A stretch of DNA of 64,000 bases, from assembly GCF_900111765.1 (NCBI RefSeq), contig NZ_FOIB01000005.1:124001-188000 (forward strand), given 5' to 3'. The stretch is from Myxococcus fulvus (lineage in GTDB: Bacteria; Myxococcota; Myxococcia; Myxococcales; Myxococcaceae). Position 1 is the stretch's first letter; each line of letters starts with the position of its first letter. Below the pieces are notes generated by a model. It ran no database searches, was not told the DNA's origin, and worked only from the letters and a program-made list of their open reading frames with translations. Below are positions 25,744 to 33,498 of this stretch, piece by piece. The translations under genes were made by a program, and so were the position numbers.

Positions 25744-26370
25744 TCATCTCGTGTTGCTTGAAGCCGGAGGCGTCGCGCGACGCGCGAGGACAGCCTTCAC
25801 GTCCTCGAGCGAGAGGCCCAGCGGCTTGATGGCGACGAGCAGGTGGTAGAGCAGGTCCGCGGCCTCCTCCGCCGCGCGGCTCGCGTCCGCGTCCGCGCAG
25901 GCCGTCACCAGCTCCGCGGCCTCTTCTCCCAGTTTCTTGAGGCGCAGGTTCCTGTCGCCGAGCAGGCGTCGCGTGTAGCCGGGCTTCTCGTCTTGCGCGG
26001 GGGCGTGTGAGGCGCGCTCGGTGAGCGTGGCGTCGAGCGCGGCGAGCGCGTCCCAGCGGCCGGTGCCGAAGCAGGTCTCCTCGCCGGTGTGACAGGCGGG
26101 GCCGGCCTTGTGGACGCGGGCGAGCACCGCGTCCCTGTCGCAGTCCGCGCGCAGCGAGACGACGCGTTGGGTGTTCCCGCTGGTGGCGCCCTTGTGCCAG
26201 AGACCTCGCGAGCGGGAGCGGTAGTGCATCTCGCCGGTGGCGAGTGTGCGCTCGAGTGCCTCGCGGTCCGCGTGCGCGACCATCAACACGTCGCCGGTGG
26301 CAGCGTCCTGGGTCACCACCGTGACGAGCCCGTTGCCCTTGGTGAAGTCCAGTGTGTCCAGGTCCAGCAT
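25744..26370 (-). CDS. hisI: Bifunctional PR-AMP cyclohydrolase / PR-ATP pyrophosphatase
   Basis: 208 residues, HisIE type, catalysing histidine steps 2 and 3. The N-terminal HisI half has [19 protein letters not shown], the metal-binding CDRDAVL and [12 protein letters not shown]. The C-terminal HisE half (~125-208) has [13 protein letters not shown] and [11 protein letters not shown], the all-alpha NTP pyrophosphatase motifs. ATG 26370 shares its A with the hisN stop (TGATG). It is the last gene of the operon. Confidence 0.96.
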
Positions 26371-27146
26371 CAGGGGGTCCTCGTCGCGCCCAGGCGCTCG
26401 CGAGTGATGCGGGCCAGGGCCGCGTTGGTGGCGATGCCGTTGCCGCCGAAGGCGGTGCGCTGGCCGGTCCAATCGGTGAAGACGCCGCCGGATTCCTCGA
26501 TGATGGGTTGGAGCGCGGCCGCGTCCCAGGGGGAGAGCAGCTCGTCCACCATCACCTCGGCGCGTCCGGTGGCGACGAGCAGATAGCCGTAACAGTCGCC
26601 CCAGGTGCGTGACACGGCGGCGTCACGTGTGAAGCGGCGCCAGGCCTCGCCTCGCTCGGGGAACTGGGAGAAGCGCTCGTCGGTGGAGAGGACCACCGCG
26701 CGGGAGAGGTCGGATTGTGCGGAGACGCGGGCACGCTGTCCGTTCCAGAAGCAGCCTTCACCGGGAGCGGCGACGAGCAGCTCGCCCACCGCGGGGAAGT
26801 AGGCCGCGCCCACGAGGATGCGCTCTCCTTCGGCCAGTGCGACGAGCGTGCCCCACAGGGGCACTCCGCGGATGAAGGTCTTGGTGCCGTCGATGGGGTC
26901 GAGGATCCAGCGGCGCTTCGCGCCGGGGCGTGTCTCACCGAACTCCTCGCCGAGGATGCCGTCCTCGGGGAAGCGTTGTTCCAGCCACTCGCGTGCCGTC
27001 TGCTCCGCGGTGCGGTCCGCCACGGTGACGGGTGTGCCGTCGCTCTTGGTGTCCACCGCGATGCCTCCGCGGAAGAACTTCAGCGCGACGTCACCTGCCG
27101 CGCGCGCGACTTGCTCCGCCGCCTGCATCAGCCCCTGGGTCGTCAT
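26370..27146 (-). CDS. hisN: Histidinol-phosphatase, inositol-monophosphatase family
   Basis: 258 residues. Dephosphorylates histidinol phosphate. IMPase-family metal ligands are visible: [15 protein letters not shown], and the late SPWDAAAL. Since HisB here is only the dehydratase, this gene supplies the missing phosphatase activity; position in the operon supports HisN over a generic inositol phosphatase. ATG 27146 overlaps the stop of small ORF B by ATGA and has GGAG 6 nt upstream. Confidence 0.92.
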
Positions 27147-27271
27147 GTCGTGCTCCTGTTTCCCACGGTGTTCATCCGAAGCGACCGGAGGGGCTCGAGC
27201 GAAGCACCGTCGCTGGCGGGCAGCCCTCGGCGCTCGGACACGCGCATCGCGCAGTGAAGATTCCGGGTCAT
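27143..27271 (-). CDS. Small ORF B of a duplicated pair in the his operon
   Basis: 42 residues (ATG 27271, stop 27145-27143). It begins [13 protein letters not shown] and ends in STT. It is homologous to small ORF A just upstream: the first 13 residues differ at one position, and the rest keeps R-LP--D-AS--P. Ribosome binding site GGGG with a 6-nt spacer. Its start overlaps the ORF A stop (ATGA) and its stop overlaps the hisN start (ATGA). No membrane segment. No known small histidine-operon protein was recognised. Confidence 0.55.
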   Translation of the reverse strand: MTRNLHCAMRVSERRGLPASDGASLEPLRSLRMNTVGNRSTT

Positions 27272-27280
27272 GTCGTGCCC
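27233..27280. repeat. Direct repeat, copy B (partner at 27359-27406)
   Basis: About 45 bp including ctcggacacgcgcatcgcgc recur at 27361-27380 with few differences; the copies are 128 bp apart. They correspond to the shared N-terminal codons and ribosome binding sites of the two small ORFs. Confidence 0.85.
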
Positions 27281-27399
27281 CCGTTCTTTGCGGCGCTCGC
27301 GCGGCGCAACCGGGTGATGGGGTTCCTCGATGCGGCATCGAGGTCGGGAAGCCATCGCGCCTCGGACACGCGCATCGCGCAGTGAAGGGTCCGTGTCAT
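27268..27399 (-). CDS. Small ORF A of a duplicated pair in the his operon
   Basis: 43 residues (ATG 27399, stop 27270-27268), beginning [18 protein letters not shown] and ending GGTT. Its ATG overlaps the hisF stop by ATGA, and GGAG lies 6 nt upstream, inside hisF. The C-terminal half is basic (RLRRASAAK). Differences from ORF B outside the DNA-identical core include synonymous changes (CTT/CTG, GAT/GAC, GCA/GCT) at conserved residues, which points to selection on the peptide. Function unknown; possibilities are a regulator or assembly factor of the His enzymes, or purely a coupling device that carries ribosomes from hisF to hisN. Confidence 0.55.
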
Positions 27400-28157
27400 G
27401 GCGTGCTCCGAATCGGCAGGCCGCTCGAGCGCAGGAGCGACTTGATGGCGCCCACCGTCGTGAGCCCATCGTGGAGGATGCCCGCCACCAGCGCCGCGTC
27501 CGCGCCGCCTCGCGTGAGCCCGTCCCTTATGTGCTCCGCGCTGCCCGCGCCACCCGACGCGATGACGGGCACGGCGACCGCGTCCGCCACCCTTCGCGTC
27601 AGCTCCAGGTCGTAGCCCGAGCGCGCGCCGTCCTGGTCGATGCTCGTGAGCAGCACCTCCCCTGCCCCACGGGCCACGCACACCTGGGCCCAGGTCACCG
27701 CGTCCAGTTCGGTCGGCTTTCGCCCGCCATGCGTGTAGACGCGGTAGCGCTCCCCCTCCTTGCGGGCATCGATGCTCGCCACCACGCACTGTGCCCCGAA
27801 GCGCTCGGCACACTCGGTCAGCAGCTCGGGCCGGGCCACCGCCGCCGAGTTGATGCTCACCTTGTCCGCACCCGCGCGCAGCGCCCGACCCACGTCCTCC
27901 ACCGTGCGCACGCCGCCTCCCACCGTCAGCGGGATGAACAGCCGCTCCGCCGTGCGTCGCACCAGGTCCCAGAGCGTCTCTCGCTCCTCCGCGCTCGCGG
28001 AGATGTCGAGGAACGTCACCTCGTCCGCGCCCTCCCGTTCGTAGCGCTGCGCCAGCTCCACCGGGTCTCCGACATCGCGAAGCCCCTCGAAGCGGACACC
28101 CTTCACCACGCGCCCGCCCTTCACATCCAGGCAGACGATGAGTCGTCGCGTGAGCAT
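27396..28157 (-). CDS. hisF: Imidazole glycerol phosphate synthase, cyclase subunit
   Basis: 253 residues. TIM barrel joining PRFAR with ammonia from HisH to form IGP and AICAR. Catalytic aspartates in [14 protein letters not shown] and [15 protein letters not shown]; phosphate loops VGGGVRT and [10 protein letters not shown] 28157 overlaps the hisB stop (TGATG). Its stop overlaps small ORF A. Confidence 0.97.
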
Positions 28158-28693
28158 CACGTCACCTCCAGGGCCACGGAGCCCTTCATGCTGAACACCG
28201 TGCCGCCATCCACCATCGCGTCCCGCAGCGCGAGCCCCAGCGCCTTGAACGCCGCCTCCGTCACGTGGTGACGGTCCTTCCCGCGCAGCACCCGCAGGTG
28301 CAGCGTCACCTTCGCGTGCTCGCAGAACGAGCGCATCCAGTGTTCGTACAACCGGTTCTTCAGCGGACCCTCGTAGAAGAAGCGTCCCCCGGCATCCAGG
28401 CACGCCTGCACCAGCGCGTCGTCCATGGGAATGGTCCGCTCCGCGAAGCGCGCCGCCGTCGCGGGAATCACCCGCTGCACCGCCGTCCCCAACGTGATCG
28501 CCACGTCCTCCATCAGGTGGTGCTTGAGGTCGCCGCGCGCATGCACCTTCAGGTCGAGCCCCGCGTAGCGCCCGAAGGTGGAGAGCATGTGGTCGAAGAA
28601 CACCAGCCCCGTGTCCACCTGCGTCGCCCCGCGACCGAGCGACACCTCCACGCGCACCTGTGTCTCCTTCGTCTCCCGTGTGACGAGGGTCAT
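28157..28693 (-). CDS. hisB: Imidazoleglycerol-phosphate dehydratase
   Basis: 178 residues, the monofunctional form without an N-terminal phosphatase. Manganese-binding His/Glu motifs [25 protein letters not shown] and [12 protein letters not shown] are all present. ATG 28693 overlaps the hisA stop (ATGA). Confidence 0.97.
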
Positions 28694-29406
28694 TCCGCGA
28701 ACTCCCGCGCGACTTCGCGCGCATCCAGTCGTCCCGTGTACAGCGCCATGCCGATGACCGCTCCGTACGCACCCGCGGCGGCCAACGCGCGCAAGTCGTC
28801 CATCGTCGTCACACCTCCCGATGCGTAGAGCCGATGACGACTGCGCTTCACCACCTCGCGCATCAGCGACAGGTCCACACCTTCCAACTGCCCCTCCTTG
28901 TGGACCGCCGTCACCAACAACCCACCGAGCGCCAGGGGCTCCAACACCGCGAGGACCTGATCCAGCGTCCTGCCACTCCCCGCTGTCCACCCTCGCGTCA
29001 CCACCTCCCGCCCGCGCACGTCCGCCGCCACCACCACGCGCCCCGGAAAGCGCTCCGTCACCTCCGCCAACCACCCCGCGTCCTCGATGGCGCGCGTGCC
29101 CACCACCACCCCCGAGGCACCTCCCTCCAGCAGCGCCGTCACCCGCGCGGTATCCCGGACACCCCCTCCCACCGTGAAGGCGAGCCCTGGCTCGTGCGAC
29201 GTGAGCCGCGTCACCACCTGAGCGTTGGAGCCGCGCCCCAGCGCCGCGTCCAGGTCGACGACGTGAAAGGAACGGAAGCCGAAGCCGCGCCAGTGTCGAA
29301 GCGCGTCGAGCGGGTCATCCACTCGCACCCGCTCCGCGTCATACGAGCCTCCGACGAGCTGCACGCAGGCCCCCTCGCGCAGGTCGATGGCGGGGATGGC
29401 CCTCAT
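28690..29406 (-). CDS. hisA: ProFAR isomerase
   Basis: 238 residues. TIM-barrel Amadori isomerase converting ProFAR to PRFAR. Catalytic aspartates in [12 protein letters not shown] and [13 protein letters not shown]; phosphate-binding TVGGGVRD and ASGGVTT. The start at 29406 overlaps the hisH stop by 4 nt. Confidence 0.97.
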
Positions 29407-29996
29407 GAGCGCACCTCACGGAGGAACGCTCGCGCGAAGGCCACTCCCGAAGTCGACGACTTCTCGGGGTGGAACTGCACGCCCACCACCTTCCCCCGAC
29501 GCACCGCCGCGGGGAAGCGGTCCTCCTCATGCGTCGTCCACGCGGTGACGAGCGACGGGTCCGCCACCCGGCACACGAAGCTGTGCGCGTAGTACACGGT
29601 CTCCAGCTTCGCTCCGGACAACGTGCTGTCCTCGTCCACCTGATTCCAACCGATGTGCGGCACCCGCCGGGCCGCGAGTCGCTGCACGTGGCCCGCGAAG
29701 AAGCCCAGCCCCTTCCCCGCCCCCTCTTCGCTCGAGTCGAACAGGAGCTGCATCCCCAGGCAGATGCCCAGGCACGGCAGCCCTCGCTCCAGCGCCAGAC
29801 GCATCGTGTTCCGTCCCGGTGCCAATCGCGCCGCCGCGAGACCGAACGCCCCCACGCCGGGCAACACGAGCACATCCGTGTCCACCGCCCTGAGAGGGTC
29901 CTCCTCGACGTGAACCTCCACGCCCGGCTCCGTGGCCAGGGCCTTCGAGAGCGAGTGCAGGTTTCCAGCGCCGTAATCGAACAGGGTGACTCTCAT
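29403..29996 (-). CDS. hisH: Imidazole glycerol phosphate synthase, glutaminase subunit
   Basis: 197 residues. Class I glutamine amidotransferase feeding ammonia to HisF. Nucleophile in CLGICLGMQLLF; His/Glu of the triad in GVQFHPEKS; N-terminal LFDYGAGNLHSL. ATG 29996 overlaps the hisC stop (ATGA). Confidence 0.97.
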   Translation of the reverse strand: MRVTLFDYGAGNLHSLSKALATEPGVEVHVEEDPLRAVDTDVLVLPGVGAFGLAAARLAPGRNTMRLALERGLPCLGICLGMQLLFDSSEEGAGKGLGFFAGHVQRLAARRVPHIGWNQVDEDSTLSGAKLETVYYAHSFVCRVADPSLVTAWTTHEEDRFPAAVRRGKVVGVQFHPEKSSTSGVAFARAFLREVRS

Positions 29997-31033
29997 CGCA
30001 AGGACTCCCGCAGCGCCGCGAGCGCCGCCTCGAGCATGGGCCACGGTCCACTGCCGATCCGGAGCGCATCCCCCACGCCGGTCAGCCCCTGGAAGGCCCT
30101 CACGTTCACATCCCGCTCACGCATCCGCTGTGCCACCCCCAGCGCGTCCGGCATCGGCACCATCAGGAAGTTGCCCTCCGAGGGCAGCGGCGACAGCCCC
30201 ATCGACATCAATTCCGCGCGGAGATGTTCACGATTCCTCCGCGCCTCGACCACCTGGACCTCGACCCACATCGGGTCCTCGCGCAGGACGGCGACGGCCA
30301 TCGACTCCGCCAACGTGGTGAGCTTGTACGGTCCACGCGCCTTCTCCACCTCCGCGATGAGCGCCAGGCTGCCCACGCCCCAGCCCACCCGCATGCCCGC
30401 GAGCCCGTAGGCCTTGGAGAACGTCCGCGTCACCAGCACGTTCTGCCGCGTGCGCGCCAGGTCCATGAAGTCCGGCGCCGAGGAGAACTCCACGTAGGCC
30501 TCGTCGATGATGACGATGCCCGGCGCCTTCTCCACCACGTGTTCCACCGCCGCGCGCGACAGCGGCGTACCCGTGGGGTTGTTCGGCGAGCAGAGGTAGA
30601 TGACCTTCGCCCCCGTGGCGAGCAGCGCCTCCGGGTCCACGTCGAAGTCCGCGCGCAGGGGCACCGGCGCCGTCTTCAGGCCGTTCACCTTCGCGAACAG
30701 CGGCATCATCACGAACGTCGGGTCCTGGAACGCGAGCACCTCGCCCGGCTCCAGGAACGCGCGAAGCGCGCTGTCCAATACGTCGTCCGAGCCACAGCCC
30801 GTCGTCACGCACGCGGCGCCGACACCGAGCCGTGAAGCGAGGACGTTGCGCAGGTCGGGCGCATAGCCGCGTGGATAGCGGGACAGTGACTCCGGACGGG
30901 ACTCGCGCAGCACCCGCTCCGCCGCGGGAGGCACGCCGAAGAGGTTCGTGTTGTCGCTCAGGTCCACGCGACACGGCCGCTTCGGCGGTGAATACAAGGG
31001 GATGTCCCGGAAGGACTCGCGCAGGGGAATCAT
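29993..31033 (-). CDS. hisC: Histidinol-phosphate aminotransferase
   Basis: 346 residues. Fold-type I PLP enzyme. PLP lysine in TRTFSKAYGLAGMRVG; SPNNPTGTPL and DEAYVEF are also conserved. The start is ATG 31033, overlapping the hisD stop (ATGA). Confidence 0.96.
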   Translation of the reverse strand: MIPLRESFRDIPLYSPPKRPCRVDLSDNTNLFGVPPAAERVLRESRPESLSRYPRGYAPDLRNVLASRLGVGAACVTTGCGSDDVLDSALRAFLEPGEVLAFQDPTFVMMPLFAKVNGLKTAPVPLRADFDVDPEALLATGAKVIYLCSPNNPTGTPLSRAAVEHVVEKAPGIVIIDEAYVEFSSAPDFMDLARTRQNVLVTRTFSKAYGLAGMRVGWGVGSLALIAEVEKARGPYKLTTLAESMAVAVLREDPMWVEVQVVEARRNREHLRAELMSMGLSPLPSEGNFLMVPMPDALGVAQRMRERDVNVRAFQGLTGVGDALRIGSGPWPMLEAALAALRESLR

Positions 31034-32337
31034 GCGCCCCTCCAGGCACGCGCGGCGTCCGCGTGCGCGAAGAGCCCCTCGCTGTCGGCGAGCAGCCCCA
31101 CGTCCTCCGCGAGCGCCTCGGAGGCCGCGCGCTCGACGCGCTGGTAGGTGGTCCACCGGTAGAAGTCGAGCAGGTTCAGCCCCGAATACGCCCGCGCCAG
31201 CCCCGCCGTGGGCAGCACGTGATTGGAGCCCGTCATGTAGTCGCCATACGCCACCGACGAGCGCTCGCCGAGGAAGACGGTGCCCGCGTTGCGGACCCTC
31301 GCCAGGTCCGCGGAGGGCGCGGCCGTGGCGAGCAACAGGTGCTCCGGCGCGAAGTCCGCCACGAAGGGCCACGCCTCCTCCAGCGAGGCGACACTCAGCA
31401 CCGCGCCCCGTGAGCGCAGCGCCGCGGCGACAATCTCCTGCCGCTTCGCATCCTCCGCCAGCCGGCGCACCTGCTCCGCGATGGCCTCCGCCACACCCTC
31501 ACCCCGCGCCACCGTCACGCACGCGGCATCCGGGTCGTGCTCGGCCTGCGCCAACATCTCCCGAGCCACCGCCTCGGGACTCGCCGTCTCGTCGGCGACG
31601 ACGAGGATCTCACTCGGCCCCGCCGGCGCCTCGATGGCCACCGCGCCCACCACCTGGAGCTTGGCCTCCGCCACGTACGCGTTGCCCGGCCCGACGATGC
31701 GGTCCACCCGGGGCACGCTCTCCGTGCCGTACGCCATGGCCGCCACCGCGCCCGCGCCCCCCAACGCGAAGACCCGGTCCGCGCCCGCGAGCACCGCCGC
31801 CGCCAGCACGCTCGGGTGTGGAAACCCATCCGGCCCCGGCGGCGAGCAGACGATGACCTCCCCCACTCCCGCCACCTTCGCGGGCACCACGCCCATCAAC
31901 ACGCTGCTCGGGTACACCGCTCGCCCACCGGGCGCATACACGCCCACGCGGCCCAGCGGGTCGGGCCTGCGCCCCACCAACACCCCCGGCTCCGTCTCCA
32001 CCTCCACCGCGCGAGGCTTCTGCGCCTCGTGGGCCCGAGCGATGTTGCGCGCCGCGCGCCCCAATGCCCGCGCCACCGAGGGCGAAAGCGACGCGAGCGC
32101 CTGCTCACAGCGCGCCCGGGGCACCTCCAACGAGGACAGCTCCGCCCGGTCGAACTGCCGCGCCATCTCGAACAGCGCCCAGTCCCCATCCAAGCGGACC
32201 TTCGCGATGAGCTCCCGCACCCGCGCGGCGATGCGCGTGTCCACGTCCCCACCGCGCTCCAACAACCGCTGACGGTCCTGACGCGAGAGGCTGGCCAGCG
32301 GCCCCCGGTACCGCAGGAACGAAGGAAGCGACATCAT
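31030..32337 (-). CDS. hisD: Histidinol dehydrogenase
   Basis: 435 residues. Zinc enzyme oxidising histidinol to histidine in two NAD steps. Zinc and substrate motifs include AEHDPDAACVTV, GPSEILVVAD and SNHVLPTAGLAR; also VGVYAPGGRAVYPSSVLMG. ATG 32337 shares one base with the hisG stop (TGATG); the next codon is also ATG, so either could be used. Confidence 0.97.
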   Translation of the reverse strand: MMSLPSFLRYRGPLASLSRQDRQRLLERGGDVDTRIAARVRELIAKVRLDGDWALFEMARQFDRAELSSLEVPRARCEQALASLSPSVARALGRAARNIARAHEAQKPRAVEVETEPGVLVGRRPDPLGRVGVYAPGGRAVYPSSVLMGVVPAKVAGVGEVIVCSPPGPDGFPHPSVLAAAVLAGADRVFALGGAGAVAAMAYGTESVPRVDRIVGPGNAYVAEAKLQVVGAVAIEAPAGPSEILVVADETASPEAVAREMLAQAEHDPDAACVTVARGEGVAEAIAEQVRRLAEDAKRQEIVAAALRSRGAVLSVASLEEAWPFVADFAPEHLLLATAAPSADLARVRNAGTVFLGERSSVAYGDYMTGSNHVLPTAGLARAYSGLNLLDFYRWTTYQRVERAASEALAEDVGLLADSEGLFAHADAARAWRGA

Positions 32338-33197
32338 CACGCCACCAGCCTTTCGATGCGCGTGACGAGGATGCCCTCGCAGCCCAGCGTCTTCAGGGCG
32401 TTGACGGTGCGGTAGATGGTCTTCGCCGGCACCACCGCGTGCACCGCCACGAACCGGCCTCCGTCCAGCACGTCCACCACGGTGGGACCGTTGAGTCCCG
32501 GCAGCACCTCGCGCACCCGGGGCAGCTCGTCCTTCGGCACGTTCGCCATCAGGTAGCGCTTGCCCCTCGCCGCGAGCACCGAGCCGAGCGCGAGCTTCAG
32601 CTCCTCCAGCTTCCTCTGCGCCTCCGGCACGTTCGACTGGCACGCCACCAGTCGCGCGCTGGACTCCAGCACGGTGGCCACCTCGCGCAGGCCGTTCATC
32701 TTCAACGTGGAGCCGGTGGACGTCAGGTCCACGACGATGTCCGCGATGCCCAGGTGCGGCGCAATCTCCGCCGCGCCCGAGACGGGCACCACCGTGACGC
32801 TCTGCCCCCGGCGCGCGAAGTAGTCCTGCGTCAGCCGAGGGAAGCAGGATGCGACGCGCATGCCGTCACGCACGTCGTTGGCGTGGCCGATTCCACTCTC
32901 CTCGCGCGCGGCCACCACCAACCGGCAGCGGCCGAACTCCAGGTCCATCAGGTGCTCGAGCTCGCGGCCCGCCTCGTTCACCAGATCCCAGCCGGTGACG
33001 CCCGCGTGCGCCGCGCCGTCCGCGACGAACTCCGGGATGTCCTGCGCGCGGACGAAGATGGCCTCGAACTCACCGCCGAGCGACGCGGTGAGCGCGCGCT
33101 CTCCTCGGGCGCGGACCTCCAGGCCCGCATCGTTGAAAAGCTCACGGACCTCTTCGGAGAGGCGGCCTTTGTTGGGAAGAGCGATCTTCAGCAACAT
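32337..33197 (-). CDS. hisG: ATP phosphoribosyltransferase, long form
   Basis: 286 residues. First and feedback-controlled enzyme of the pathway. Catalytic part includes LPNKGRLSEE and the PRPP loop DLTSTGSTLKMN. The C-terminal ~75 residues form the ACT-like regulatory domain (VREVLPGLNGPTV...VHAVVPAKTIYRTVNALK) that binds histidine, so no HisZ is needed. It is the first structural gene, 49 nt after the attenuator U tract. Confidence 0.97.
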   Translation of the reverse strand: MLLKIALPNKGRLSEEVRELFNDAGLEVRARGERALTASLGGEFEAIFVRAQDIPEFVADGAAHAGVTGWDLVNEAGRELEHLMDLEFGRCRLVVAAREESGIGHANDVRDGMRVASCFPRLTQDYFARRGQSVTVVPVSGAAEIAPHLGIADIVVDLTSTGSTLKMNGLREVATVLESSARLVACQSNVPEAQRKLEELKLALGSVLAARGKRYLMANVPKDELPRVREVLPGLNGPTVVDVLDGGRFVAVHAVVPAKTIYRTVNALKTLGCEGILVTRIERLVA

Positions 33198-33243: not shown

Positions 33244-33277
33244 CGAAAAAAGGCCCGTCCGGGGGGGACGGGCCTTC
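33244..33277 (-). terminator. Intrinsic terminator in the his leader (attenuator)
   Basis: On the minus strand AAGGCCCGTCC (33276-33266) pairs perfectly with GGACGGGCCTT (33260-33250), 11 bp with a C5 loop, followed directly by a T tract and CGTTT. It lies between a His-rich leader ORF and hisG, so it should act as an attenuator and not as an operon end. GACGGG in the leader coding region (33353-33348) can pair with CCCGTC of the terminator 5' arm, a candidate antiterminator. Confidence 0.9.
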
Positions 33278-33311
33278 GGTCGCTGCGGCAGGTGCCGGGA
33301 GGGTGGTGCGT

Positions 33312-33404
33312 CTAGTGGCTCACCCAGGCATGCGCATGGCGAACGGTCCCGTCGGGGCCGAGCCGATGATGCGCATGATGGGGATGCACGGAAGAGAAAC
33401 GCAC
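33312..33404 (-). CDS. hisL: his operon leader peptide, His-rich
   Basis: Reading minus-strand from GTG 33404 to TAG 33314-33312 gives 30 residues with eight histidines: HPHHAHHR at residues 7-14 and RHAHAWVSH at the end. Five His codons fall in a seven-codon run. In classic attenuation, ribosome stalling at such codons when charged tRNA-His is short favours the antiterminator. The start is uncertain: GTG 33404 has GGAG only 2 nt away, GTG 33389 has none; if a weak promoter (TTGACG at 33441-33436) is real, GTG 33404 could be close to leaderless. An ATG at 33412 belongs to another frame without histidines. Confidence 0.7.
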   Translation of the reverse strand: MRFSSVHPHHAHHRLGPDGTVRHAHAWVSH

Positions 33405-33498
33405 GGCTCCATCAGTAATGGCAAAGGTGCCCCGCCGTCAACTCGGCCTGCGTCATGCCGCTTGCAAACCCTCGACGGGGCGAGCAGGAAGCAAGGCC

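Follow-up and report, generated by a model that had tools for sequence, protein, structure and literature searches.

A candidate ribosome-mediated attenuator with a probably leaderless leader peptide upstream of the histidine operon in Myxococcaceae

Here we report the analysis of a 64,000-nucleotide stretch of DNA from Myxococcus fulvus (hereafter the window), in which the region preceding the histidine biosynthesis operon is very probably a ribosome-mediated transcription attenuator with a leader peptide that is probably translated from a leaderless message. The evidence taken from the sequence comprises the leader ORF, the intrinsic terminator, conservation, covariation of the terminator, partial covariation of the A:B pairing, promoter geometry, and the hisG tree. 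A sequence-only reading of the same DNA had proposed a his-operon attenuator in a myxobacterium, and conservation, covariation, and folding models lend support to this prediction.

Attenuators responding to histidine have been described in gamma-proteobacteria and predicted in some Firmicutes (PMC9413887), in a paper that makes no mention of Myxococcus. No published his attenuator from myxobacteria or Gemmatimonadota was found in the open-access literature, nor did the papers searched yield mapped 5' ends for Myxococcus, and the locus has no match to the Rfam family RF00514 (His_leader), even at E-values up to 5.

Results

Leader region of the his operon

The features of the locus, all on the minus strand, are as follows.

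33436..33441, minus: -35 element TTGACG, its TTGAC conserved in 64/64 Myxococcaceae
33411..33417, minus: -10 element TACTGAT (TAnnnT-like), assigned by consensus only
33312..33404, minus: His leader peptide ORF, GTG start, 30 codons, 8 His
33366..33386, minus: strand A, His cluster 1 (codons 7-13, HPHHAHH), proposed sensing codons on the basis of His conservation and codon exchange
33321..33353, minus: strand B, GACGGG...CATGCGCATGCC...GGGTG, common to the protector A:B and the antiterminator B:C, containing the second His cluster
33330..33338, minus: second His cluster HAH, CATGCGCAT, nucleotide-constrained
33267..33296, minus: strand C, GGCACCTGCCGCAGCGACCGAAGGCCCGTC, the antiterminator partner, overlapping the 5' arm of the terminator
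33246..33277, minus: intrinsic terminator from the terminator scan, 12-pair stem and U tract
32337..33197, minus: hisG, first gene of the operon (TIGR00070)
25744..32340, minus: rest of the operon, hisD, hisC, hisH, hisA, hisB, hisF, hisN-like, hisIE-like

The leader ORF extends from the GTG at 33404-33402 to the TAG stop at 33314-33312 and encodes the peptide VRFSSVHPHHAHHRLGPDGTVRHAHAWVSH (30 aa, 8 His), in agreement with the sequence-only reading, which had placed before hisG a minus-strand leader ORF with eight histidines in 30 codons. It is followed by the terminator sequence GAAGGCCCGTCC-CCCCC-GGACGGGCCTTT plus TTT (33277-33249), the single site found at the locus by the terminator scan, as compared with 0.3 +/- 0.5 in shuffles. 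The same reading had described an 11-bp stem with a U tract 49 nt before hisG; the terminator is present, but the scan gives it 12 pairs rather than 11, and the hisG ATG at 33197 lies 51 nt past the end of the stem and 48 nt past the end of the U tract, close to the distance first given. The pairing it had proposed between 33353-33348 and the 5' arm of the terminator is borne out by the complementarity of GACGGG to CCCGUC at 33272-33267. The adjoining upstream gene, thiO, is divergent from hisG, so the terminator can act only on transcription into hisG.

The leader RNA folds better than 200/200 shuffles (z -5.1). The peptide alone is weak proof and the case is carried by comparison, since the six frames of this GC-rich window contain 75 stretches with at least 8 His per 30 codons, in about 16 places.

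Among the downstream genes, hisD and hisC were assigned by family, and hisH, hisA, hisB, and hisF by reading and tblastn synteny, while the hisN-like and hisIE-like genes were assigned solely by reading their ORFs. A 121-nt direct repeat (27200-27320 and 27328-27448; 71% identical, spacing 128) lies between hisF and the hisN-like gene.

Conservation of the leader and the roles of the two His clusters

The upstream ORF and the terminator are present in all 64 distinct Myxococcaceae hisG upstream regions. A covariance model built from 42 rows matches 71/71 Myxococcaceae genomes with this hisG, each time at hisG; sequences in the model match by construction, and the tabulated hisG upstream regions therefore provide the independent view. 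Other matches of the model are weak, and those opened proved to be ordinary terminators or chance. The second match in the M. fulvus genome (C5:330953, 26 bits) was rejected as a His leader, similar ones that were opened being the terminators of other genes or chance. The combination of promoter, start codon, and His run occurs once in the 10.8-Mb genome. In other families of the order, no His leader was found before hisG, which there follows another long ORF. The sequence-only proposal thus stands when set against relatives: every member of the Myxococcaceae examined retains the His codons of cluster 1 as well as the terminator, the terminator covaries, and the element recurs in another phylum.

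The two His clusters differ in what is conserved. At six of the seven positions of cluster 1, His is kept in 54-64 of the 64 sequences, and at its first three His positions CAT and CAC exchange freely; retention of His despite synonymous exchange points to the amino acid as the target of selection. Cluster 2 has one position with R in 32 and H in 31 of the 64 sequences, and its other His is encoded by CAT in 63/64 and by CAC in none, a pattern that indicates selection on nucleotides and by which cluster 2 was rejected as a second sensor. The earlier description of His codons in two clusters is correct in that both are present, but cluster 2 is constrained as RNA and only cluster 1 is proposed as the sensor. 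Given the amino acid constraint in the one and the nucleotide constraint in the other, the two-cluster pattern is, judged from these substitutions, that of one sensor (cluster 1) and one RNA strand (cluster 2). The existence of the second His cluster would follow from strand B having two pairing partners, cluster 1 and the terminator side.

Alternative RNA pairings

With strand D denoting the 3' arm of the terminator, A:B, B:C, and C:D are in the folding models mutually alternative pairings. The C:D terminator covaries by G-C to A-U double changes, with 0/500 shuffles scoring as high. Covariation support for A:B is moderate, and relatedness alone can carry sequences past such shuffles in the absence of structure. 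For B:C, 89.6% of cells are paired, as compared with 24-44% when the strands are slid, and the B:C core is invariant, so covariation is silent there. In a partner-swap test with 14 diverse sequences, own B-C pairs were more stable than permuted ones (0/20000); with eight distant groups the value was 141/20000, and L059 and L104 individually show nothing.

A different terminator with a GGGCCC core is found upstream of hisG in the family members L099, L103, and L104. The leader strand of L099 and L103 carries changes that match those of the terminator (GGGCCCGUCGGG with CCCGACCGGGCCC), as expected if B:C is under selection; in all three, the contrast expected from the simple ribosome model is absent.

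Ribosome-block folding of the leader

For transcripts truncated after C, equilibrium folds were computed in which the nucleotides under an assumed ribosome footprint were blocked. The mean probability of pairing between C and the leader was 0.13 in unblocked RNA and 0.61 with a ribosome on the last cluster-1 His, and it exceeded 0.5 in 64/73 sequences with a ribosome on cluster 1 versus 7/73 unblocked. When the ribosome was moved codon by codon in 16 representatives, the value was 0.5-0.8 throughout cluster 1, at the A and P codons as well as at His, and in most of them it dropped close to 0 over the P-D-G codons that come next, with a second rise towards the stop codon in some. The E. coli hisL leader, a positive control treated by the same procedure, gave a peak at the early His codons. 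Synonymous-codon shuffles matched the contrast in 1/300 cases for the window, 0/300 for L023, and 16/300 for L033, and caused no loss of contrast for L011 and L047. In several relatives, namely L011 and most of the Gemmatimonadota, RNA without a ribosome is already biased towards the antiterminator; from the Gemmatimonadota result, the A:B protector looks stronger in Myxococcaceae. Compared with the terminator, B:C is the less stable end state, which means that the switch has to be under kinetic control.

Promoter geometry and a predicted leaderless start

In all 64 Myxococcaceae the first T of the invariant TTGAC lies 35-38 nt before the leader start codon, and among 8229 other upstream positions the motif is found at 2. 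A TA dinucleotide is found 12-14 nt before the start codon in 63/64, with the T of TANNNT not always in register. The start codon is GTG in 55 and ATG in nine of these leaders, that of M. xanthus being ATG, and Shine-Dalgarno-like 5-mers precede it in only 2/64. The published hallmark of bacterial leaderless genes is a TANNNT signal some 12 bp ahead of the start codon, detected in 8/33 delta-proteobacterial genomes of the survey concerned (PMC3160421), and the leader shows the combination used there, namely a TANNNT-like signal at about 12 bp and no Shine-Dalgarno sequence. It is thus quite probable that the leader message is leaderless, with the GTG at or within about 2 nt of the predicted transcript start. 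The sequence-only reading had noted a GTG start with no normal ribosome binding site; the Shine-Dalgarno-like motif is indeed absent, yet this does not appear to be simply a start without a binding site, since the fixed distance to TTGAC and the -10 element predicts a leaderless message, of which such an absence is expected. A pattern search for a leaderless Trp leader in the same genome gave 8+11 matches, no more than the reversed control (11+7).

Related leaders in Gemmatimonadota and other phyla

Among the best-scoring 30 hisG loci in a sample of 101 Gemmatimonadota genomes, 25 have a His-rich upstream ORF. With L059 added to these 25, 22 of the 26 Gemmatimonadota leaders have TTGAC 34-39 nt ahead of their start codon. 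A rule-based terminator follows 23 of the 25, most with a GGCCCGTC core, and in the remaining two a long GC stem is combined with a T run of reduced length. In the ribosome scan of these leaders, C is available to the leader while the ribosome occupies the His codons, and it is often masked at the codons after them.

In the hisG tree, the Myxococcaceae and four other rows of the same family nest inside Gemmatimonadota, behind several well-supported branches and apart from most other Myxococcota, and the order hisG-D-C-H-A-B-F is common to the window and the four other operons compared. Horizontal transfer is the simplest reading of this nesting, seen in a tree of hisG only, and of the shared gene order, and it is quite probable that the operon and its attenuator were acquired together from a Gemmatimonadota-like donor.

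Among spirochaete loci with the best-scoring HisG, a His leader was found in 0/30, and four spirochaetes with a long HisG (L063-L066) have or may have one. Short His leaders are also present in four other Myxococcota (L106, L140, L144, L146), whose HisG is only distantly related. By hand count, TTGAC stands 36-38 nt from the leader in these four, and 35-38 nt when L064-L066 are included. Leaderless His attenuators may be more widely spread.

Discussion

Several properties of an attenuator come together at this locus. A short His-rich leader ORF with synonymous exchange of its sensing codons precedes a biosynthetic operon, an intrinsic terminator separates it from hisG, and in silico a ribosome stalled on those codons frees an antiterminator that excludes the terminator and has an invariant core giving no covariation support. 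We infer from these data the transcript start, the stalling, the termination, and the read-through, as follows. Transcription would start no more than about 2 nt from the leader GTG, which means that the ribosome would have to load on a bare 5' end. When charged His-tRNA is plentiful, the ribosome would pass cluster 1 and then cover strand B; with B masked in this way or paired in A:B, the C:D terminator would form and the polymerase would stop before hisG. When it is scarce, the ribosome would stall on cluster 1, leaving strand A covered and B free. Strand B, which begins 12 nt past the last cluster-1 His codon, would then pair with C once C has been made, and with the terminator arm occupied in B:C, transcription would continue into hisG.

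The main competing explanation retains a His attenuator but places the promoter further upstream, with a normal 5' UTR and the GTG used without a ribosome binding site or replaced by another in-frame start. The transcript start is a prediction, and a sigma-70 promoter scan of the locus with E. coli criteria found none, the -10 boxes matching TATAAT weakly, all of which such an arrangement would accommodate. It is nevertheless unlikely, considering the fixed position of TTGAC, so rare elsewhere upstream, the scarcity of Shine-Dalgarno-like motifs, the GTG or ATG at the leader start position in 64/64, and the similar geometry in Gemmatimonadota; the reading frame is not constant from TTGAC to the start, ruling out a single conserved upstream start. 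An action in trans of the leader peptide or of the short terminated RNA, with attenuation secondary, has a precedent in Sinorhizobium meliloti, where the trpL peptide and the attenuator RNA act in trans (PMC7298713). Here the peptide outside cluster 1 is variable or accounted for by RNA pairing, nothing points to a target, and a trans role would be compatible with attenuation. This explanation is very improbable.

A His-sensing T-box or another riboswitch working without translation would be in line with the T-boxes that control his genes in Firmicutes and Actinobacteria (PMC9413887), but no curated family reaches threshold, no T-box appears even at E-values up to 5, and the synonymous variation of the His codons reflects coding constraint, so that this option has next to no probability. 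The same extremely low probability applies to a chance association of a His-rich frame with an unrelated terminator: such frames are common in the GC-rich window, but chance would hardly produce an element that is conserved in 71 genomes, covaries, and recurs in another phylum, or a terminator that, next to a divergent gene, can act on transcription into hisG alone.

The predicted attenuator resembles enterobacterial hisL in its leader ORF with His codons, its terminator, and its alternative pairing before hisG, and it behaves similarly in the ribosome-block model. E. coli hisL has seven consecutive His in a 16-residue peptide, whereas here 5-7 His form a cluster broken by A, P, or R and are joined by a second, RNA-constrained cluster; unlike this leader, hisL is without TTGAC 35-38 nt before its ATG. 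The predicted Firmicutes attenuators likewise have a His leader peptide, a terminator, and an antiterminator outside gamma-proteobacteria, but they belong to other lineages and have three to five His codons in a row (PMC9413887). Leader ORFs at the very 5' end of the message are known from S. meliloti trpL (PMC7298713) and Corynebacterium glutamicum ilvBNC (PMC11857589), which serve other amino acids in other phyla and whose 5' ends are experimental, where ours is predicted. Since leaderless attenuator ORFs are already known, this trait counts as a variant rather than as a principle of its own.

On balance, we consider it likely that the leaders of Gemmatimonadota and Myxococcaceae represent one distinct and deeply conserved class of his attenuators, leaderless, moved between phyla with the operon as a unit, and kept by selection. 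The prediction is directly testable, M. xanthus being tractable and its leader starting with ATG. If true, ribosome-mediated histidine attenuation would extend to two phyla for which we found no published case, outside the reach of the Rfam model; leaderless initiation would have been retained as a constant component of an attenuator across a great evolutionary distance; and the his locus would clearly exemplify the joint transfer of an operon and its own cis-acting RNA switch.
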